The position numbers and the translations under genes were made by a program. DNA of 33,620 nt, from NCBI GenBank assembly GCA_017546725.1, contig JAFYRX010000069.1:1-33620 (forward strand). The letters are read 5' to 3'. The first letter of the stretch is position 1; each line of letters starts with the position of its first letter. This stretch comes from Alistipes sp. Its GTDB lineage: Bacteria; Bacteroidota; Bacteroidia; Bacteroidales; Rikenellaceae. Under the pieces are notes generated by a model. It worked only from the letters and a program-made list of their open reading frames with translations. It was not told where the DNA came from and searched no databases. This document shows positions 16,013 through 24,702 of this stretch, piece by piece.

Positions 16013-17239
16013 CTATCTCTTTGCGCCCTTGGCACCTTTTGCGCCTGCGCTCGCAGATGAGTAATTGAAGATGTTCTCCTTGTAACTTGTTGTCTTGAAC
16101 GATGAGTCGCGCTTGCGCTCAAATGCAATGGCTATCAATCGCTCTACCAACTCGTTGAATGATACACCCGTAGCCTCCCACAAATAGAACGACAATGAGC
16201 CCGGGATGGTATTTATCTCGTTTACATAAATCTTGCCTGTAGCCTCGTCAATCATAAAGTCGATTCGTGACACGCCATCACAAGCCAATGCCTTGAACGT
16301 AGCGACAGCCGTAGTGCGAATGAATGTGGTCACCTCGTTAGGTAGGTTGGCGGGAATCTCTCTTACCGTAGAGCGCATACCCTGCGATTGCTTTACGCCG
16401 CCGCCTTTAGCGCCACCTTTGGCTCCACCACCAAGATATTTGTCGGCATAACTCAAAATCTCACCGCTGCGGATAGGTGCCTCGCATACCGAAGCCTCGC
16501 ACTCGTAGTAGTTACCCAATACCGAGCAGTTAATCTCCTTCAATTGCTCCACCAATCGCTCCACGATGATGCGCTTTGAGTAACTTACGGCGTTATCAAC
16601 TGCCTCGATAAACTCCTCGCGGTTATGTACGGCCGTAATACCTACACTCGAGCCCGAGTCGGCGGGCTTTACAATCATCGGGTAGTTCAACTTCTTCTCG
16701 GTGCGCTCTACGACACTCTCCTGACTGTCGAACCACTCCTTATCCGAGAACCAAGCATACTCTATTACGGGGATACCCGACTCCGAGAGTATCATCTTCA
16801 TCGTGATTTTATCCATTCCGTTGGCCGAGGCGAGTACATTGCAACCCGCATAGGGTATTCCCGTCATCTCAATAGCACCCTGGAATGAGCCATCCTCGCA
16901 GTTGGTGCCGTGCAGGGCGGGCAGGATTACATCCAATTTAGCCACTACGTCGCTGCCAAACATCGGACGCTTAACCTTGTAGAGGTTATTGTCGCCATAG
17001 ATGGGGCGTAGATATACTGCCTCACACTTGGCATACAGACTCTCCATATCGCGGTAGTTCTCGCTCTTGCGCAAGGCCTCACCTGTGTACCACGCGCCTT
17101 GCTTTGATATATAGATAGGCGTAATGTTGTACTTCGCGGTGTCGATGGCCTCCATAGCCTGAATAGCGGTCAATACAGAAATCTCGTTCTCTACCGAGCG
17201 ACCACCAAATATTACTCCTACATTAATTTTACTCTTCAT
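16013..17239 (-). CDS. ddl: D-alanine--D-alanine ligase with Gly/Ala/Lys-rich insertion and tail
   Basis: This 408-residue ATP-grasp enzyme joins two D-alanines for peptidoglycan precursors. Family motifs are FGGRSVENEIS (with the catalytic Glu), LPALHGTNCEDGSFQG, the ATP-grasp segment YPMIVKPADSGSSVG, SYADKYL (Tyr aligned with the catalytic Tyr of E. coli DdlB, which favours D-Ala over D-lactate as second substrate), and IYVNEINTIPGSLSFYLWEA. It is longer than usual because of a low-complexity stretch GGGAKGGAKGGGVKQSQ directly after the KYL of the omega loop, plus a tail ending GAKGAKGAKR. The ATG at 17239 is 25 nt from the MurF-like stop, so the two are probably co-transcribed. Whether this is the only ddl of the genome is unknown. 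Confidence 0.93.
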   Translation of the reverse strand: MKSKINVGVIFGGRSVENEISVLTAIQAMEAIDTAKYNITPIYISKQGAWYTGEALRKSENYRDMESLYAKCEAVYLRPIYGDNNLYKVKRPMFGSDVVAKLDVILPALHGTNCEDGSFQGAIEMTGIPYAGCNVLASANGMDKITMKMILSESGIPVIEYAWFSDKEWFDSQESVVERTEKKLNYPMIVKPADSGSSVGITAVHNREEFIEAVDNAVSYSKRIIVERLVEQLKEINCSVLGNYYECEASVCEAPIRSGEILSYADKYLGGGAKGGAKGGGVKQSQGMRSTVREIPANLPNEVTTFIRTTAVATFKALACDGVSRIDFMIDEATGKIYVNEINTIPGSLSFYLWEATGVSFNELVERLIAIAFERKRDSSFKTTSYKENIFNYSSASAGAKGAKGAKR

Positions 17240-17264
17240 CGTTTATCTTGAGTTTTATAGTTTT

Positions 17265-18839
17265 CTACTTAAATGAGTCGGGCAAATCGTTCTCGTACAA
17301 TATCACATCGCCCGCAATCATCATCTGCGCCAATCGCTGCGATGCCTCGGCGAACGAGTCGGCTATGATGATGCGCTCCTCCGCAAAGTCGCGCTCCTTG
17401 AGTCCCTGCACTATGGCCTCTCGGTTTACCTTGTTTACGACAAAAGCCCAGTCAGCCGCCTCGGCTATGTGCTGGCCCAACGCACGGTTGTTGCGCTCCT
17501 GGCTCTCGCCCATCTCGACAAAGCCAGGTGTTACCACTATGCGACGACCACCGCCCTTGCGCTTGAAATCGCGCAATACTTCCAGAGCCATTTTTGCGCC
17601 TGCAGGGTTTGAGTTGTAAGCGTCGTCGATAATCGTAACGCCTCCAGCCGTATGCTTTATGCTCAAGCGATGTTCAATCTGCTCGATTTGGCGTATTGCT
17701 CGTTTCTGCATAGCCGAGGGCACCTTCAACTCGTCGGCTACGGCTATTGCGGCCAGTAGGTTGAGTATGTTGCCACGTCCCGCCAAGTGGGTTACATAGC
17801 CATCGTTCTTGTCGCCACGCACGTCTATGGCAAACGACGTCGATAGCGGTGCATAATTCACCTCCGTAGCGCGATAATCGGCTGAGGTGTTCTCCACCGA
17901 GTAACTTATAGTTCTGCAGTGGTGCTTGAGGTGCGCCTCTGCGATAGGCTGTGAGTCGATATTTATAACGCCCAAACCGTTTGCAGGAAGTGCGTCGATG
18001 AGTTCAAACTTCGTATTGAGTACCCCCTCGATTGAGCCGAAGGTCTCGAGATGCATCTCACCAACAGCCGTCACGATACCTATAGTAGGGTGTACCAAGT
18101 CGCAAATCTCCTTGATGTCGCCCCTCTGCTTGGCTCCCATCTCGACGATAAAGACCTGATGGTGGGGCTTTAGATGCTCTCTGACGGTGCGAATCACGCC
18201 CAACGTTGTGTTGAAGTTGCCAGGCGTCATCAGTACGTTGTACTTCTCGGAGAGTATGCGATAGAGGTAGTGCTTCGTTGAGGTCTTGCCAAAACTACCC
18301 GTAACGCCGATAATCTTAAGGTCGGGCATCGAGCGCAGGATGCGTTGCGCGTCATTGTAATACCAGCGCGAAATCATAGCCTCCAAAGGTTTGTTCAGCA
18401 GATTAGATGTAAGCATTACTACGGGCATAAACAACAGCACGAGTGCAGCCAAAGCGGTATATTGCGGTGCGAAGTATGCCATAGCGCCAATGACAGCCGC
18501 CGTAAAGAGTACGGCCGTAAGGAACAAGCGCTTCACACGCATCGTATAAACGATAGGCTTCTTGTATGTGGTGCGCAACTCCGCCCACGCGATAGCGGCC
18601 ATCATTGCAGATGCAAATCCGAGGAATATCTCTCGCGTTACAAAGGGTAGTGCACCCATAATGGCCAATACGGCAATCATCCCCGCACGCCAAAACTTGT
18701 ATCCGCCACGAAACCACCTTGCGTATCGCTCCTCACGATAGGAGTTGTGTTGGAACATATGCACGTCGAAGCGTACTACGGCAAACCATAGCGCAGTGTA
18801 ACAAATCCAAAATATGCAACTAAATAGTATCGTCATCAT
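17265..18839 (-). CDS. Membrane-anchored Mur ligase (MurF-like)
   Basis: This 524-residue protein has two parts. Residues about 1-165 hold four or more hydrophobic segments (TILFSCIFWICYTALWFAV; AGMIAVLAIMGALPF; LTAVLFTAAVIGAMAYF; YTALAALVLLFMPVVML) in place of the usual soluble MurF N-domain. Then comes a Mur ligase core: P-loop GVTGSFGKTSTK, EMGAKQRGDIKEICDLVHP, TAVGEMHLETFGS, the NLLAAIAVA helix and IDDAYNSNPAGAKMALEVL, which are all MurF-type. It ends in VILYENDLPDSFK rather than the KGSR motif of ordinary MurF. The start ATG follows directly on the TAG stop of the hydrolase gene (tagATG), suggesting translational coupling. It probably adds a D-Ala-D-Ala-like dipeptide or another group to a cell-wall precursor at the membrane. 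It could be the sole MurF or an accessory paralogue. Confidence 0.9.
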   Translation of the reverse strand: MMTILFSCIFWICYTALWFAVVRFDVHMFQHNSYREERYARWFRGGYKFWRAGMIAVLAIMGALPFVTREIFLGFASAMMAAIAWAELRTTYKKPIVYTMRVKRLFLTAVLFTAAVIGAMAYFAPQYTALAALVLLFMPVVMLTSNLLNKPLEAMISRWYYNDAQRILRSMPDLKIIGVTGSFGKTSTKHYLYRILSEKYNVLMTPGNFNTTLGVIRTVREHLKPHHQVFIVEMGAKQRGDIKEICDLVHPTIGIVTAVGEMHLETFGSIEGVLNTKFELIDALPANGLGVINIDSQPIAEAHLKHHCRTISYSVENTSADYRATEVNYAPLSTSFAIDVRGDKNDGYVTHLAGRGNILNLLAAIAVADELKVPSAMQKRAIRQIEQIEHRLSIKHTAGGVTIIDDAYNSNPAGAKMALEVLRDFKRKGGGRRIVVTPGFVEMGESQERNNRALGQHIAEAADWAFVVNKVNREAIVQGLKERDFAEERIIIADSFAEASQRLAQMMIAGDVILYENDLPDSFK

Positions 18840-19616
18840 CTACTCCTTTTTCATATCCTTTGCTAAAAAACTCTCCAACACCCTTACGAACAACGGCATA
18901 TTCTCTATGAAAGAGTAGTGTCCAGCACCCGCAACGGTCACCAAACCAGCATCGGGGATAAGTTTCTCCATACGCTTGGCGTCGGCCAAAGGTGTGGCGG
19001 TGTCGTTCTCGCCCCAAAAGAGCAGTGTCGAGGCCTTAATCTTGGGCATTAGGTGGCACAAGTCCTCGTTTACACACTTCGACAATATCGCGCGCATCAT
19101 AGGTGAGGCGTTGTTGTAATCGGCCGAGCCCGCCTTCGCACGTCGTTGCTCGATTATCTTTGTGGCTCGCTCCTTGCCGACGATGAGTGGCAACAATCGT
19201 TTCAAGAGTTTGAAGGTATAGACCTTGCGGTAGTAAGTAAAACTTCTTCGTGGCTTCACTCCAGCAGCATCCACCAAAATCACTTTGCGAGTAGCGTTGC
19301 GCGAGGCATATACTATCGAGACTCTGCCACCGAATGAGTGACCTATGAGTATCGGGTTGGTAATCCCCTCCTGCTCGGCAATAGCCTCTAGCGAACGGGT
19401 ATATTCCTCCACACCCCATACACTCTGCGGCTCTTCGCTCTTGCCGAAGCCTGCGAAATCTACCGTAAAGACCTGGAAATACTGCGTCAAATATGGTTTT
19501 AACTGATTGAAAATCTCACCATTGCATCCCCAGCCGTGTAGCAAAAACAAAGGTCGCCCTGCACCTTCGACGGTGTAGTGCAACCTTATGTCGGAATATG
19601 TAATTGTCTTGTCCAT
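18840..19616 (-). CDS. Alpha/beta-fold hydrolase
   Basis: This 258-residue protein has a full catalytic triad pattern: oxyanion segment LLHGWGCNGEIF, nucleophile elbow GHSFGG, acid Asp in FWGENDTATP and His in AGAGHYSF near the C-terminus. A cap rich in basic residues lies between (about residues 125-190). There is no signal peptide, so it is cytoplasmic. The family includes esterases, peptidases and C-C hydrolases, and sequence alone gives no substrate. Its stop codon abuts the start of the MurF-like gene, which suggests a role in the same cell-wall step. I chose ATG 19616 (MDKTITYSDIRLHY); the frame extends to a TTG at 19631, but that overlaps a TAAATTTG promoter-like box at 19629-19636. 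Confidence 0.9.
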   Translation of the reverse strand: MDKTITYSDIRLHYTVEGAGRPLFLLHGWGCNGEIFNQLKPYLTQYFQVFTVDFAGFGKSEEPQSVWGVEEYTRSLEAIAEQEGITNPILIGHSFGGRVSIVYASRNATRKVILVDAAGVKPRRSFTYYRKVYTFKLLKRLLPLIVGKERATKIIEQRRAKAGSADYNNASPMMRAILSKCVNEDLCHLMPKIKASTLLFWGENDTATPLADAKRMEKLIPDAGLVTVAGAGHYSFIENMPLFVRVLESFLAKDMKKE

Positions 19617-19628
19617 AGTTTCTCGATA

Positions 19629-19636
19629 CAAATTTA
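19629..19636 (-). promoter_or_regulatory. Possible -7 box before the hydrolase gene
   Basis: On the minus strand it reads TAAATTTG, 12 nt before ATG 19616. No -33 TTTG is seen at 19-21 nt. If unused, the gene would depend on read-through from the aromatic operon. Confidence 0.4.
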
Positions 19637-19706: not shown

Positions 19707-20777
19707 TTACTTATTCATCACCTCGTTTTGGTGGTTGATACTCTCGACGTGGATAGCCTCGAGGACCGAATTTACAAACTCTTCGCTCAAGCCCATCGAG
19801 CGTGTCATATTGAGCATACGACGGCATACCTCGCCCCAACGGTTGGTCTGCAGGATGGCTACGTTTGAAGCCTTCTTGATGTGGCCAATCTTGTCGGCGG
19901 TCTTCATACGCTGGCTCAAGAGTTCAAACAACTCGGCGTCAATCTGGTCAATCTGCTGACGGCAGAGGTTCAACTCATCGTTAAACTCGGGGTCGTCGGC
20001 CGATTTGGTACGCCACATAATGTTGTCAATCATTGTGATGCAATCCTGCGGAACAACCTGCTGTGCCGAGTCGCTCCACGCCTTGTCGGGCGAATTGTGG
20101 CTCTCAATCATCATACCGTCGAAACAGAGGTCAGCGGCCTGCTGTGCAATGCCCTGCAACAATGGACGGCAACCGCAGATGTGCGACGGGTCGCAAATCA
20201 TCATCATCTCGGGGAAGCGTGCGCGCATCTCGAAAATCATATGCCACATAGGCGGGTTGCGGTATTTCGTGTGCCCAAAGTATGAGAATCCACGATGTAT
20301 CAAACCTATGTTCTCGCGCGGAATACCCTCGTTTATAAGGCGGTTAACGGCGCCAGCCCAAAGTCCGATATCGGGCGTCATAGGGTTCTTGACCAAGACG
20401 GTTACATCCTTGTTATCGCGCAGAGCCTCGGCTATCTCCTGGATGGCAAAGGGCGACACGGTAGTGCGCGCACCAATCCAAAGAATATCGATATTGTGCT
20501 TCAGCGCGAGTTGAACGTGCGAACGGTTGGCCACCTCGACTGCCAATGGGAGGCCGGTCTTCTCCTTAATCTCCTCCAGCCACCCCAATGCAGGCTCGCC
20601 AATACCCTCGAATGTGCCAGGGTTGGTGCGGGGCTTCCATACGCCTGCGCGTATTACGTCAACCTTGCCCGACTTCGCCAACTCAAGAGCCGTATTAACG
20701 GTCTGCTCGTAAGTCTCGGCAGCGCAAGGTCCTGCTATGATGAGGGGACGTTTCTCCCCAAGTACAAACTTTCCCAT
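19707..20777 (-). CDS. Bifunctional DAHP synthase (type I-beta) / chorismate mutase
   Basis: This 356-residue fusion has an N-terminal DAHP synthase barrel (about residues 1-255) and a C-terminal chorismate mutase helix bundle (about 268-350). Barrel landmarks are LIIAGPCAAE, IRAGVWKPRTNPGTFEGIG, GARTTVSPF, VKNPMTPD, IHRGFSYFG and CDPSHICGCR. The mutase begins NLCRQQIDQIDAELFELLSQRMKTADKIGHIK, with the Arg/Lys residues of the AroQ fold. It catalyses the first step of the shikimate pathway and chorismate to prephenate; the fused mutase supplies the mutase missing from the neighbouring PheA and TyrA. Related fusions in Prevotella and Porphyromonas are reported to be feedback-controlled by prephenate through the mutase domain. 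It is the last gene of the leader-controlled aromatic operon. Confidence 0.95.
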   Translation of the reverse strand: MGKFVLGEKRPLIIAGPCAAETYEQTVNTALELAKSGKVDVIRAGVWKPRTNPGTFEGIGEPALGWLEEIKEKTGLPLAVEVANRSHVQLALKHNIDILWIGARTTVSPFAIQEIAEALRDNKDVTVLVKNPMTPDIGLWAGAVNRLINEGIPRENIGLIHRGFSYFGHTKYRNPPMWHMIFEMRARFPEMMMICDPSHICGCRPLLQGIAQQAADLCFDGMMIESHNSPDKAWSDSAQQVVPQDCITMIDNIMWRTKSADDPEFNDELNLCRQQIDQIDAELFELLSQRMKTADKIGHIKKASNVAILQTNRWGEVCRRMLNMTRSMGLSEEFVNSVLEAIHVESINHQNEVMNK

Positions 20778-20868: not shown

Positions 20869-21711
20869 TTATTTTAATATCTCTCTAATCTTGTTGGCTC
20901 TCTTCATAGCCTCAATCAAGCCCTCTCTGTCATCGCGTTCAATCATACGGCGCAGAATCTGCAACTGGTGTATATGCTCGCGCAATACATCCAAAACGTT
21001 GTATTTGTTGCCCAAAAATATCGGGGCCCACGTCTGCGGCAGACTCTTTGCCAGACGCACCGTACTCTCGAAACCTCCAGCGGCCAAATCGAAAATATGC
21101 TCCTCTTCGCGCTCCTTCTCCAACACAGTCAGAGCCAGGGCAAAAGATGTGATGTGCGATATGTGTGACACATAGGCGCAGTGTGTATCCTGTTCCTCGG
21201 CCGACATATAGCGTATCGGCATACCGAGACTTTGGTAGATGTGCTCAACCAACTGCAAAGCGTCACTGTCGGTCTGTCCCTTTTCGCATATTACCACCGT
21301 ACGCCCTTTGAAGGCGTTATGCTCGGCAGCCTCGGGACCGCTATTCTCGGTACCCCACATAGGGTGGGTAGCGACCAGGCGACCTCGGCGAGGATGCAGC
21401 ATAGTAATTTCACACAACTCCTGCTTGGTGGAGCCCATATCCATCACAATCTGCTTCTCGCTGATGCGGTTGAGTATCTTTGTCGCCATTATGGGTATCG
21501 TATCGACGGGCGTTGCCAAGACGATTAAATCGCTCTCGGCAATAGCCTCGTCAATAGTTACAATCCTCTCGACCAAACCCAACTCGAGCGCTTTCTGTGC
21601 GTTGCTCGGTGAGTGTTCGATACCCGTCACGACATCGCATAGTCCCTTCTCCTTGAGGCTCAATGCGAACGAACCACCTATAAGGCCAAGACCAATGACG
21701 GTTGCTTTCAT
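20869..21711 (-). CDS. tyrA: Prephenate dehydrogenase
   Basis: This 280-residue cytoplasmic enzyme oxidatively decarboxylates prephenate to 4-hydroxyphenylpyruvate for tyrosine. The N-terminal Rossmann motif VIGLGLIGGSFALSLKEKG binds NAD(P). The family blocks LIVLATPVDTIPIM, VMDMGSTKQELCE, FVATHPMWGTE-like (VATHPMWGTENSGPEAA) and a C-terminal helical dimerisation domain (HCAYVSHISHITSFAL...FESTVRLAKSLPQTWAPIF) are present. There is no fused chorismate mutase or ACT domain, so mutase activity must come from the next gene. It starts 13 nt after the aminotransferase stop, in the same operon. Confidence 0.95.
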   Translation of the reverse strand: MKATVIGLGLIGGSFALSLKEKGLCDVVTGIEHSPSNAQKALELGLVERIVTIDEAIAESDLIVLATPVDTIPIMATKILNRISEKQIVMDMGSTKQELCEITMLHPRRGRLVATHPMWGTENSGPEAAEHNAFKGRTVVICEKGQTDSDALQLVEHIYQSLGMPIRYMSAEEQDTHCAYVSHISHITSFALALTVLEKEREEEHIFDLAAGGFESTVRLAKSLPQTWAPIFLGNKYNVLDVLREHIHQLQILRRMIERDDREGLIEAMKRANKIREILK

Positions 21712-21724
21712 CTTTGTCGGATGG

Positions 21725-22903
21725 TTATTTTACAAAACGGCTCTTAACACGCTCGGCAGCCTCGGCCAAACGGTTGGCGGGCATACAGAGTGAGATGCGG
21801 ATATACTTGTTACCCTCGCTACCGAAGATACCGCCAGGAGTTACAAATACGTCGCACTCGTTCAATACCTTGTCCGAGAATGCGAAGCAGTCGCCGTCGA
21901 AATCCTCGGGCATAGCAGCCCATACAAACAGACCAGCCTGTCCCTTAACATAGTTACATCCAAGTGCATCGAGCAAAGCGTAGCCGTGTGCCTCGCGCTC
22001 GTAGTATGTAGCGTTCAACTCGTCATACCACTCGTTGCCCAAAGCCAAAGCCTCGGCAGCAGCAGCCTGTACGGGGAAGAACATACCTGAATCCATATTT
22101 GACTTGAAGCGCAAGATGTCGCTCAAGATGTCGGCACGACCTGCTACAACACCTACACGCCAGCCAGCCATAGAGTGACCCTTACTTGTAGAGTTCATCT
22201 CGATAGCCACGTCGCGTGCGCCCTCGATTGAGAGGATGCTCAACTGCAAGTTGTTACGAACGAAACTATAGGGGTTGTCGTGTACCAAAAGGATGTTGTG
22301 CTTTGCAGCAAAGGCAACCAACTTCTCGAACAACTCTACAGTGGGGTGTGTACCCGTAGGCATATTGGGGTAGTTGACAAACATCAACTTAACCTTGCTC
22401 AAATCCTCCTTCTCAATCTCCTCAAAGTTGGGGTAGAAACCGTTAGCGGCATTGAGGCGGTACTCCAAAACCTCACCACCAGCCAATGTAACGGCAGCGC
22501 GGTAAGTGGGGTAGCCAGGGTTGGGAACCAATACCTTGTCACCCTCGTCGAGGAATGCCATACAGATATGCATAATACCCTCCTTTGAACCGAGCAAAGG
22601 GAGAACCTCGCTCTTGGGGTCCAACTTCACGTTGTACCACTTCTCATACCAATCAGCATATGCCTGACGCAAGAGTTCGCTACCGTTGTAGGGCTGGTAG
22701 GCGTGAACGTCGGGGCGCTGTGCCTCCTTGCCCAAGCGGTCGATAACAGCCTGTGCGGGGGGCATATCGGGGCTACCGATACCGAGTGAGATGATGTCAC
22801 GACCAGCCTTGCGCAACTCGGCTATCTCGCGGTTCTTCTTTGAAAAGTAATACTCCTTGATGCAATCCATACGATGCGAGGGAGTGATTGTTACCTTTGT
22901 CAT
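21725..22903 (-). CDS. Aminotransferase of the aromatic operon
   Basis: This 392-residue fold-type I PLP enzyme shows ISLGIGSPDMPP, the PLP-binding LLGSKEGIMH, VPNPGYPTYRAAV, NYPNMPTGTHP (where most relatives have NPNNPTG), HDNPYSFV and the Schiff-base Lys241 in NSTSKGHSMAGWRVG. The C-terminal YIRISLCMP holds the substrate-carboxylate arginine. Because it lies between pheA and tyrA in one operon, the likely reaction is transamination of phenylpyruvate and 4-hydroxyphenylpyruvate to Phe and Tyr; this is context inference, since its fold group also includes aspartate and LL-diaminopimelate aminotransferases. It starts 54 nt after pheA ends. Confidence 0.92.
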   Translation of the reverse strand: MTKVTITPSHRMDCIKEYYFSKKNREIAELRKAGRDIISLGIGSPDMPPAQAVIDRLGKEAQRPDVHAYQPYNGSELLRQAYADWYEKWYNVKLDPKSEVLPLLGSKEGIMHICMAFLDEGDKVLVPNPGYPTYRAAVTLAGGEVLEYRLNAANGFYPNFEEIEKEDLSKVKLMFVNYPNMPTGTHPTVELFEKLVAFAAKHNILLVHDNPYSFVRNNLQLSILSIEGARDVAIEMNSTSKGHSMAGWRVGVVAGRADILSDILRFKSNMDSGMFFPVQAAAAEALALGNEWYDELNATYYEREAHGYALLDALGCNYVKGQAGLFVWAAMPEDFDGDCFAFSDKVLNECDVFVTPGGIFGSEGNKYIRISLCMPANRLAEAAERVKSRFVK

Positions 22904-22957: not shown

Positions 22958-23767
22958 CTATTTGCCGCTGCGGTAAACGCCATAAACGTGCATCTCGCTT
23001 GTGGCACTCTGCAGACGGTCGATGTTTCTGATGTAGTCGTCCAAGCACTTAAACTCCAAGTCGATGTGGAACAGGTAGTGCCACGGCTCGCTCGGTATGG
23101 GGTACGACTGCAACTTCGAGAGGTTGATATTCTGCAATTGGCTCAACGCCTTCAACAGAGAGCCCTCCTCGTGGGGTGTCTTGAAATACAACGACGCCTT
23201 GTTTGCATTGGGTGCAATGTCGTGGTCGTAGCGTTTGAGAACCATAAAACGAGTATAGTTGCTCTTTATTGTGTTGATTTCAGGTGCAATAATCTTCAAT
23301 CCGAACATCTCGGCCGCGAGTTCGCTGGCTATGGCTGCCGTGTGGCGCAACCCCTTCTCGGCTATATGGCGGGCACTCAATGCGGTATCTTCCGACTCGA
23401 TAAGTTTCCACGAAAAGTTATCGAGGTAGTCGATGCATTGCAACAGAGCCATCGAGTGTGACTCTACCTCGCGTATATCCTCCAACTCTACATCGGGCAA
23501 GACCATCAGGTTTTGCTTGATGGGCAGATAGACCTCGCCTGCAACCTGAAGATTTTCATCCTGCAGGATGCTGTAGTTGGGGATGATAGAGCCTGCTATC
23601 GAATTCTCGATAGCCATAAGGCCCATATCGGCCTCTCCACGCTTGACCATAGCGGCTACAGCGCGGAACGTATCGCACGGCGCTATCTCGATATTGCGAC
23701 CAAAATATTGTATGGCGGCAATGTGGTGGAAGCATCCTTCGTATCCTTGTATTGCAATCTTTTGCAT
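22958..23767 (-). CDS. pheA: Prephenate dehydratase with ACT domain
   Basis: This 269-residue monofunctional enzyme converts prephenate to phenylpyruvate. The catalytic domain (about residues 1-180) includes IAIQGYEGCFHHIAA, GLMAIENSIAGSI and the substrate motif NYTRFMVL. An ACT regulatory domain follows (about 190-265, EEGSLLKALSQLQNINLSKLQSYPI...WHYLFHIDLE); the ESRP of proteobacterial enzymes reads QSYP here, so the Phe-binding pocket is altered or divergent. There is no chorismate mutase domain; that activity is in the fusion at the operon end. It is the first structural gene, 11 nt after the T-run of an attenuator terminator and downstream of a Phe/Tyr-rich leader peptide, so expression should fall when charged tRNA-Phe and tRNA-Tyr are plentiful. 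Confidence 0.96.
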   Translation of the reverse strand: MQKIAIQGYEGCFHHIAAIQYFGRNIEIAPCDTFRAVAAMVKRGEADMGLMAIENSIAGSIIPNYSILQDENLQVAGEVYLPIKQNLMVLPDVELEDIREVESHSMALLQCIDYLDNFSWKLIESEDTALSARHIAEKGLRHTAAIASELAAEMFGLKIIAPEINTIKSNYTRFMVLKRYDHDIAPNANKASLYFKTPHEEGSLLKALSQLQNINLSKLQSYPIPSEPWHYLFHIDLEFKCLDDYIRNIDRLQSATSEMHVYGVYRSGK

Positions 23768-23778
23768 TCGTTAATGAT

Positions 23779-23815
23779 TAAAAAATCCTGACCTAGAATT
23801 ATCGAGGTCAGGATT
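23779..23815 (-). terminator. Attenuator terminator of the aromatic operon
   Basis: A perfect 11-bp stem (arms 23805-23815 and 23784-23794, loop of 10 nt) is followed on the minus strand by a six-T run that overlaps the last two stem positions. It ends 11 nt before the pheA ATG and after the promoter, so transcripts must read through it to express pheA. Its 5' arm can pair instead with the leader segment at 23858-23866. Confidence 0.92.
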
Positions 23816-23845
23816 AATATTACTATCTATGAAAGCATCTTCATT

Positions 23846-23911
23846 TTAGCATACGATATCCTGACCGTTCGCACGGAAGTAATAAAATCGCTTATAAAAG
23901 AAGAAACCCAT
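23846..23911 (-). CDS. Phe/Tyr-rich leader peptide of the aromatic operon
   Basis: This is a 21-codon reading frame, ATG at 23911 to TAA ending at 23846. Residues 3-12 are FFFYKRFYYF, so eight of ten are Phe or Tyr, encoded by both TTC/TTT and TAT/TAC codons. After the Phe/Tyr block the codons GGT CAG GAT (residues 16-18) form a 9-nt segment identical to part of the 3' terminator arm and complementary to the 5' arm. A stalled ribosome at low Phe or Tyr would leave this segment free to form an antiterminator; a ribosome reaching the stop would mask it and let the terminator form. This is the logic of enterobacterial pheL and trpL. The frame happens to stay open upstream for about 40 codons but contains no ATG, GTG or TTG. 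Confidence 0.9.
   Translation of the reverse strand: MGFFFYKRFYYFRANGQDIVC
23858..23866 (-). promoter_or_regulatory. Antiterminator segment within the leader
   Basis: On the minus strand GGTCAGGAT is the exact complement of ATCCTGACC in the 5' terminator arm. A 5-bp mini-hairpin (23829-23844) in the spacer may bring the two together. The competing structures are 9 bp (antiterminator) and 11 bp (terminator). Confidence 0.82.
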
Positions 23912-23979
23912 ATCGTCAATATCTTTGTTATTTAACTCTTTATTGTTATGCAGTGCGAAATCAGCCCCGAATAGCGATA

Positions 23980-24010
23980 CAAATATATCGTAATTAGATG
24001 ATATATCAAA
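23980..24010 (-). promoter_or_regulatory. Promoter of the aromatic operon
   Basis: On the minus strand TTTG (24010-24007), a 19-nt spacer and TATATTTG (23987-23980) match the Bacteroidetes consensus fully. The predicted start is near 23973, giving about 60 nt before the leader ATG. Confidence 0.85.
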
Positions 24011-24015
24011 ATCAA

Positions 24016-24044
24016 AAGTAAACTATTTTTGGATAAATTTACTT
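24016..24044 (-). terminator. Weak AT-rich hairpin after the nitroreductase gene
   Basis: Arms AAGTAAA and TTTACTT (24038-24044 with 24016-24022) are followed by TTTTGATTTTG. It could terminate the nitroreductase transcript just before the aromatic-operon promoter. Confidence 0.4.
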
Positions 24045-24054
24045 GGCGCAGGAT

Positions 24055-24702
24055 TTACTGCACATATTTTACTTTCGAGTACTTACGTTCTGGAGTCTCA
24101 GGCTTCTCGTCAGAGTAACCCATACCGATACAAATCAGCAACTCCTGACCTTCGCTTAGTGCAAGGGCATCGAGGAAAGGCTTACCAGCCTCGGTAGAGA
24201 AAAATCCGATGGGACCCATCATAATAACTGATGATACGCCCAGCGACTTCGCTGCATTTACCATATTGCCAGCCATCAAACCGCAATCAAGTTGTGTGCA
24301 AGGGCCTGGACGGTGTGAGATGAAGATAACATTAGTGGCGTTGCGGAACATATTCTTGAAGTTGGGGTCCTCGAACTGTTTGGCCATAGGCGAATCGGCG
24401 GGAACGCTATTCTTGTAAGCCTCTGTTGCATCTTTAATCCATTTCTGAGACTCTACAACTCTCACCTCCCAACGCTGTGCATTCATACCATTGGGTGCGT
24501 GGATACCACACTCCAGAATCTTATCCATAACCTCGTGTGGAATAGGCTCGTCGTTGTATTGGCGTACGCTGCGGCGTGTCATAATAGTCTCGATAACCTC
24601 GTTAGGGTAGGTTGTTTCCTGCTCCTGCTCTTGTTGAGCGGCATTGTCACAAGCCGTAAGGCCGAAAAGGCAAGCGGCGATTAAAAGAAAGTATTTTTTC
24701 AT
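24055..24702 (-). CDS. Nitroreductase-family lipoprotein
   Basis: This 215-residue protein has a lipoprotein signal (MKKYFLLIAACLFGLTACDN, lipobox LTAC, acylated Cys18), a Gln/Glu linker and a nitroreductase domain. The FMN-binding start TRRSVRQYNDEPIP, CGIHAPNGMNAQRWE, the central FISHRPGPCTQLDCGLMAGNMVNAAKSLG and LLICIGMGYSDE are typical. Nitroreductases are normally cytoplasmic FMN enzymes using NAD(P)H; here the signal places the domain on the periplasmic side of a membrane, where NAD(P)H is absent, so a different electron donor is expected. The frame could start at 24756, but ATG 24702 gives the lipobox. It lies 50 nt after the LuxR-type gene on the same strand, probably co-transcribed. 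The substrate is unknown. Confidence 0.88.
   Translation of the reverse strand: MKKYFLLIAACLFGLTACDNAAQQEQEQETTYPNEVIETIMTRRSVRQYNDEPIPHEVMDKILECGIHAPNGMNAQRWEVRVVESQKWIKDATEAYKNSVPADSPMAKQFEDPNFKNMFRNATNVIFISHRPGPCTQLDCGLMAGNMVNAAKSLGVSSVIMMGPIGFFSTEAGKPFLDALALSEGQELLICIGMGYSDEKPETPERKYSKVKYVQ

Follow-up and report, generated by a model that had tools for sequence, protein, structure and literature searches.

The window, that is, the whole stretch of 33,620 nucleotides of Alistipes sp. DNA that we analyzed, carries on its minus strand an aromatic amino acid operon in which pheA, a class I/II aminotransferase, tyrA, and a DAHP synthase/chorismate mutase fusion follow one another with gaps of 54, 13, and 91 nt (Table 1). 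The operon may continue into peptidoglycan genes; on the same strand (16013–19631), an alpha/beta hydrolase, a MurF-like Mur ligase, and a D-Ala-D-Ala ligase come after the DAHP synthase/chorismate mutase gene with gaps of 75, 0, and 25 nt.

Table 1. Leader, segments, and downstream genes of the aromatic operon in the window.
Feature	Position	Strand	Basis
-33 promoter element TTTG	24007..24010	-	read on minus strand
-7 promoter element TATATTTG (TAnnTTTG)	23980..23987	-	read directly; 19 nt from TTTG
Leader peptide ORF, 21 codons, MGFFFYKRFYYFRANGQDIVC	23846..23911	-	sequence; F/Y-rich counterparts in relatives
Regulatory codons 3-12 (FFFYKRFYYF)	23876..23905	-	translation and codon-wise comparison, n=24
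Possible fourth segment GCGAU (codons Lys-Arg-Phe), could pair with 23853-23857	23887..23891	-	RNAalifold consensus, n=24
Small hairpin CCGU-GCGA-ACGG, 3' side overlapping segment 1	23865..23876	-	pairs standard in 24/24
Segment 1 GGTCAGGAT, antiterminator strand within leader	23858..23866	-	complementary to terminator 5' arm
Small hairpin AUGAAG...UUUCAU, nested in antiterminator loop	23829..23844	-	predicted fold, window only
Segment 2, terminator 5' arm AATCCTGACCT	23805..23815	-	sequence, folding, alignment
Segment 3, terminator 3' arm AGGTCAGGATT	23784..23794	-	sequence; covariation in 24 sequences
T run of terminator	23780..23785	-	read on minus strand
pheA, prephenate dehydratase	22958..23767	-	Pfam PDT, E 5.8e-55
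Class I/II aminotransferase	21725..22903	-	Pfam Aminotran_1_2
tyrA, prephenate dehydrogenase	20869..21711	-	NCBIfam PRK08507 above cut-off; Pfam PDH_N, PDH_C
DAHP synthase/chorismate mutase fusion	19707..20777	-	Pfam DAHP_synth_1 and CM_2

Upstream of pheA lie a short leader ORF rich in Phe and Tyr codons and a terminator; both are real. A preliminary description made from the letters of this DNA had listed a promoter separated into two elements by 19 nt, a 21-codon leader with an aromatic block at residues 3–12, a segment 1 within the leader just after that block, and a 9-mer common to segments 1 and 3; we find each of these on the minus strand, and the positions given earlier are accurate to within one or two bases. 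The description of an 11-bp terminator with six Ts holds for the hairpin, but two Ts had been counted twice, so that the structure is either 11 bp with four free Ts or 9 bp with six; the distance from the last T to the ATG of pheA at 23767 is 12 nt instead of 11. The aromatic codons of the leader are 3–6 and 9–12, and of all ORFs of 8–60 codons on the two strands of the window, the leader alone has at least seven Phe or Tyr (F/Y) per 10 codons. Within the whole window, the three segments are the only places where the 9-mer or its complement occurs. Taken in full, the leader RNA has a better fold than its shuffles (z -2.33; 1 of 200 shuffles equal or better). The terminator is absent from a scan for consensus terminators; its 10-nt loop, between the two arms, exceeds the limit of the tool (8 nt).

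We assembled the regions upstream of pheA from relatives and scored each for an ORF with at least six F/Y per 10 codons within 400 nt of pheA. The 160 loci comprise the window, 39 from the nearest-relative set, 15 more from its own genus, 82 from the rest of its order, and 23 from other orders of its class. The 15 were chosen from 27 genus-mates with a pheA match (nine of the other 12 are contigs of L031–L057, and three offer little sequence upstream or match only in part), the 82 from 138 matching genomes besides that of the window (mostly one per genus), and the 23 from 32 matching genomes of the same class; L002–L010 were left out, identical contigs being already among L031–L057. A pheA match is absent from 21 of 48 genus-mates (G001–G048), which may have lost Phe synthesis or have incomplete genomes. 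After three loci with short upstream sequence were dropped (L026, L041, and L096), 157 regions remained, some of them not independent (the leader stretch of L049 is that of L044, and L063 hardly differs from L039).

An F/Y-rich leader is found in 146 of the 157 regions: 35/39 for the nearest-relative set with the window, 15/15 for the own genus, 74/80 for the rest of the order, and 22/23 for the other orders. The same criterion is reached by 84 of 3140 dinucleotide shuffles and by 6 of 157 reverse complements; the rows are mutually related, so this contrast carries greater weight than the count itself. Among loci from other classes of the phylum, the leader occurs in 2 of 13, which were picked for an ordinary pheA frame length from 95 out-of-class genomes with a match. 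These two (L170 and L171) also have the pheA closest to that of the window among the out-of-class matches; a transfer of the operon along with its leader is possible. The promoter pair (TTTG or TTG, 17 to 23 nt, TAnnTTTG), a Bacteroidetes promoter type, lies upstream of 85 of 137 leaders, including 26/26 in the nearest clade, and occurs in 1.3% of shuffles; 7 of the 144 leaders with a detected terminator have too little sequence ahead of them and are omitted from this count.

Nine of the 11 misses are explained by a leader that lies just below the threshold, farther upstream, or at the head of another aromatic operon. A recognizable leader is present 253–555 nt upstream of pheA in L064, L066, and L067 (in the latter two it scores 5/10, below the threshold), and the locus of L114, when taken longer (L183), has a leader whose stop codon lies 385 nt ahead of pheA. 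In the Rikenella-like loci (L064, L066, L067, and L069), the 253–555 nt from leader stop to pheA look GC-rich by eye. L154/L189 has pheA as the fourth gene, after DAHP synthase/chorismate mutase, aroB, and aroA, and an F/Y leader with a terminator precedes the first of these genes. In one family (G117, G208, and G340), pheA has no leader, and the leader is found ahead of tyrA and DAHP synthase/chorismate mutase, as it is in G282 of the same family; in G150, it precedes an aminotransferase, DAHP synthase/chorismate mutase, and tyrA. A convincing leader was not found in the contig-limited L065 or upstream of pheA in the genome of L124/L186, in which the DAHP synthase match is weak. Frames with 6/10 F/Y about 1 and about 7 kb upstream in L184 and L186 were taken as chance.

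By this comparison, the leader keeps to the start of an aromatic operon and not to pheA. The occurrence of the leader at the operon head despite changed gene order supports control of the whole operon; the earlier suggestion that one leader sets the entire operon, including the DAHP synthase/chorismate mutase, thereby gains comparative support, and the rearranged operons are natural experiments on the range of control of the leader.

The amino acid in which such leaders are rich follows the pathway, as shown by comparison with hisG (30 of 36 matches) and trpE (27 of the 30 loci obtained; L247–L249, partial matches, were omitted), for which we searched 650-nt upstream regions. With thresholds of at least four His or at least three Trp per 10 codons (these counts stand without shuffle controls), His-rich frames are found upstream of 23/30 hisG genes and Trp-rich frames upstream of 19/27 trpE genes, one of the latter (L237) having scattered Trp and being possibly chance; F/Y-rich frames occur in 2/30 and 2/27, respectively. 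Upstream of pheA (400-nt regions), His-rich frames number 2/157 and Trp-rich frames 0/157. The hisG locus of the genome of the window (L209) has a His leader, MTNLLNIHHHHHILRKMR, and a downstream terminator; the end of that leader and the 3' arm of the terminator have GGTAGG in common, a design like that of the pheA leader. A trpE match was not found in the window's own genome, which is rated 85% complete.

These counts bear on the view that the ORF and the hairpin are unrelated, that is, that a plain terminator or processing site happens to follow a chance F/Y-rich frame. T-rich intergenic DNA can give F/Y by chance, as the shuffles that reach 6/10 illustrate; however, the frequency of the leader in real regions and the tracking of the pathway by the amino acid (His, Trp, or Phe) contradict this view, to which we assign a practically negligible probability.

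Both F and Y are present in 138 of 140 distinct leaders (742 F and 517 Y residues), and across 24 aligned sequences from the nearest clade, codons 5, 6, 11, and 12 encode F in some members and Y in others. This exchange fits selection for 'a Phe or Tyr codon' and, together with the joint presence of the two residues, lends comparative support to the earlier proposal that a single leader senses both Phe and Tyr. It also speaks against a TnaC-like mechanism, in which the peptide would arrest the ribosome on sensing a small molecule instead of by codon starvation: the peptide is short and its C-terminal part is conserved in the nearest clade, as such a mechanism might suggest, but the listed peptides differ between families apart from their F/Y content, F and Y replace each other at several codons, and the C-terminal stretch that the clade conserves is also where segment 1 lies. 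We consider a TnaC-like mechanism highly improbable.

Trp occurs in 29 of the 140 leaders (1.0% of residues), and 23 of 32 Trp adjoin F or Y; by our estimate this adjacency is about that expected from the abundance of F/Y, and we do not claim Trp as a third sensed amino acid. In a family in which the leader precedes tyrA and DAHP synthase (L250, L251, L252, and L254), Trp lies within the F/Y block in 4/4 leaders, and all three aromatic amino acids are possibly sensed.

A terminator is detected downstream of 144 of the 146 leaders; the two others (L123 and L134) are omitted from the segment counts. To score segment 1, we took the best pairing of the remaining leader (plus 6 nt) with the 5' arm of the terminator; a helix with a score of at least 16 is found in 104/144, compared with 8.1% for shuffled segment-1 regions and 18.2% when terminators are swapped between genomes, the latter control being conservative because many terminators have TCCCG in common. 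The 40 sequences in which no segment 1 above threshold was found in the stretch searched are excluded from the spacing and fold statistics (n=104). Segment 1 starts a median of 9 nt (IQR 8–12) past the last aromatic codon, as it does in the window (9 nt); given the size of the ribosome footprint, this is near where the leading edge of a ribosome would be if it stalled at that codon.

In the alignment across relatives that the preliminary description had proposed as a check, the Phe/Tyr-rich leader is conserved; in the nearest clade the terminator covaries, but the helix between segments 1 and 2 does not. In 24 sequences of this clade, 95.8% of terminator cells are paired, 6 cells are changed on both sides, and 0 of 500 shuffles reach the observed value on three of five measures; the segment 1–2 helix is 90.2% paired in the same sequences with covariation not beyond shuffles, so its support rests on the distant comparisons.

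We folded the RNA with the ribosome-covered part left out, for the states before and after segment 3 is made. Before segment 3, the probability of the antiterminator in the window is 0.96 without a ribosome and 0.87 with a ribosome stalled at the last aromatic codon; with an assumed footprint of 14 nt, the latter drops to 0.42. Placing the ribosome at the stop codon brings it to 0, but here the masking covers segment 1 by assumption. The means for the 104 sequences are 0.68 without a ribosome and 0.84 with the stall. After segment 3 is made, the equilibrium probability of the antiterminator in the window is 0 to 0.08 in every ribosome state; the terminator thus wins once segment 3 exists, and the predicted switch must be kinetic.

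The sequence has the hallmarks of an attenuator: a short ORF rich in codons for the end products, a terminator before the first structural gene, and a predicted antiterminator, mutually exclusive with the terminator, just ahead of where a ribosome would stall. As the preliminary description had proposed, and as the recurrence of the leader, terminator, and segment 1–2 helix among relatives supports, the element is very probably a ribosome-mediated transcription attenuator of the Phe/Tyr biosynthesis operon; we infer from these patterns that the leader is translated, that ribosomes stall on it, that transcription terminates, and that the element responds to amino acids. RNA polymerase would start at the TTTG/TAnnTTTG promoter, with a ribosome trailing through the 21-codon leader. 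When Phe- and Tyr-tRNA are ample, the ribosome would reach the stop codon and cover segment 1, so that segments 2 and 3 pair; the terminator would form, and transcription would stop ahead of pheA. When Phe or Tyr is scarce, the ribosome would stall in codons 3–12, leaving segment 1, just ahead, free to pair with segment 2 before segment 3 has been transcribed; the resulting antitermination would allow read-through into pheA, the aminotransferase, tyrA, and DAHP synthase/chorismate mutase. Several results stand against this explanation: the segment 1–2 helix does not covary beyond shuffles within the nearest clade, the antiterminator of the window loses at equilibrium once segment 3 exists, its probability with the stall drops under the larger footprint, 40 of 144 sequences have no segment 1 above threshold in the stretch searched, one genome (L124/L186) and the contig-limited L065 have no convincing leader, and the probability of the antiterminator in the window without a ribosome is as high as with the stalled ribosome.

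The last of these results concerns the number of segments. The preliminary description had held that three segments suffice, which is partly supported: three segments are compatible with the window, in which segment 1 is predicted to be free without a ribosome, but the leader folding in many relatives and a hairpin that overlaps segment 1 in the nearest clade favor a fourth. In a classical four-segment attenuator, a variant of the explanation just given and compatible with it, the 5' part of a ribosome-free leader would fold onto segment 1 and the operon would be off without translation, as in trpL. In 42% of the 104 sequences, at least 95% of 40 codon shuffles of the 5' part of the leader fold less well than its natural codon order (rank ≤0.05; mean z over the 104, -1.70), and the effect persists in the 78 sequences outside the nearest clade (Wilcoxon p 1.3e-12, with relatedness uncorrected). 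Several families have long leader hairpins that cover segment 1. In the nearest clade, the four pairs of the CCGU/ACGG hairpin are standard in 24/24, with one compensated pair (U-A in 17, C-G in 6, and U-G in 1). The codons AAG, CGA, and TTT are each identical in 23/24, and the GCGAU that they contain is able to pair just past segment 1; compensatory change in this pairing was not found in the 24 sequences, and the pairing is weak in the window.

Against four segments, the window has a codon-shuffle rank of 0.55 and a leader-only z of 0.07 in addition to its high ribosome-free antiterminator probability, and this probability falls below 0.5 in just 30 of the 104 sequences. Leader folds that end at segment 1 give mean z values of -0.31 (32 Rikenellaceae) and -0.54 (112 others); when the folds extend past the stop codon, the means are -0.61 in the nearest clade (26 sequences) and -1.67 in the 118 others, which prompted the codon-shuffle test. 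We judge the four-segment design to have somewhat less than an even chance. Both designs may occur in the class. A broader proposal, which we advance tentatively and think rather unlikely to hold in full, is a class-wide Bacteroidia Phe/Tyr attenuator that travels as a unit with the first part of the aromatic operon and has three segments in some lineages, including that of the window; in these, an untranslated leader would leave segment 1 free and read-through would be the default, the opposite of trpL. The difference between lineages in the protecting hairpin makes the effect of an untranslated leader directly testable.

The Phe/Tyr leader thus looks like an attenuator of the classical type that is widespread in the relatives examined; from the comparisons, its interest is in its breadth, its apparent dual sensing of Phe and Tyr, and its location at operon heads. 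The control of amino acid biosynthesis in gut Bacteroidia is little described in the literature that we searched, and the recurrence of one anatomy at Phe/Tyr, His, and Trp operons points to leader-peptide attenuation as a common mode of control in the Bacteroidia sampled; the anatomy also provides a simple rule for finding such switches.

A riboswitch or T-box that senses Phe/Tyr or tRNA directly would likewise be a 5' element with a terminator ahead of an amino acid operon. However, at the gathering threshold Rfam has no match at the element (its one match within the window is a tRNA at another place) and no attenuator family in 20 of the 249 loci of relatives and controls (9 pheA, 3 hisG, and 8 trpE), and what the bacterial families have in common is the F/Y frame and the pairing pattern. 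No T-box is among the Rfam matches in the window or, up to E 10, in 23700–24060. We regard a riboswitch or T-box as exceedingly improbable. The best weak Rfam matches at the element, Bacillus ncr1575 and the greA leader, align with the terminator hairpin far below their cut-offs and were dismissed as chance. Phe_leader (RF01859), the Rfam family for the E. coli pheL attenuator, does not appear up to E 10 in 23700–24060, and a PHROGs search of the leader peptide returned no family.

Bacteroid-trp (RF01692, 'Bacteroidete tryptophan peptide leader RNA'; PMC2864571) is, like the element in the window, a leader-peptide element of Bacteroidetes; unlike it, Bacteroid-trp concerns trp, and the model has no match in the window at the gathering threshold or up to E 10 in 23700–24060. 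Below its cut-off (49 bits), the model aligns with the trpE leaders in L223 (1262–1397, 40.2 bits) and L224 (1278–1395, 39.8 bits). The Rfam model may be too narrow.

For Flavobacterium psychrophilum, PMC9723704 reports strong clues of leader-peptide attenuation ahead of amino acid operons and, upstream of pheA, a 5' element conserved in Flavobacteriaceae that has no Rfam match. It resembles our element as a structured 5' region without an Rfam match and is probably the same element; unlike the present analysis, the text consulted gives no leader peptide, segments, or breadth past Flavobacteriaceae. According to PMC7366714, short ORFs that resemble leader peptides are present in 5' UTRs of B. 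thetaiotaomicron. Before adding a Firmicutes case, PMC2965389 (2010) gave Proteobacteria and Actinobacteria as the only groups for which leader-peptide systems had been demonstrated; a 2010 comparative attenuation study by Lopatovskaya and others, cited in PMC4833913, may partly cover the present element. Among the matches listed in the literature searched, we recognized no description of a Phe/Tyr leader peptide of Bacteroidetes. The preliminary description knew of no described Bacteroidales example of this exact design, a statement qualified by the Bacteroidetes Trp leader (RF01692) and by the Flavobacteriaceae pheA element.

The actinobacterial trp attenuators (PMC1262725), predicted from a leader peptide with tandem Trp codons, an antiterminator, and a terminator, with conserved complementary triples, are like the element in the window in their leader and antiterminator/terminator but belong to another phylum and concern another amino acid.

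The E. coli trpL and pheL attenuators have, like the element in the window, a leader peptide with regulatory codons, an alternative antiterminator and terminator, and the terminator ahead of the first structural gene. In contrast, the leader in the window has mixed Phe and Tyr codons, and its operon holds pheA, tyrA, and DAHP synthase; furthermore, the 1:2 protector hairpin of trpL has no measurable counterpart in the codon order of the window leader, whereas such a hairpin has support in relatives.
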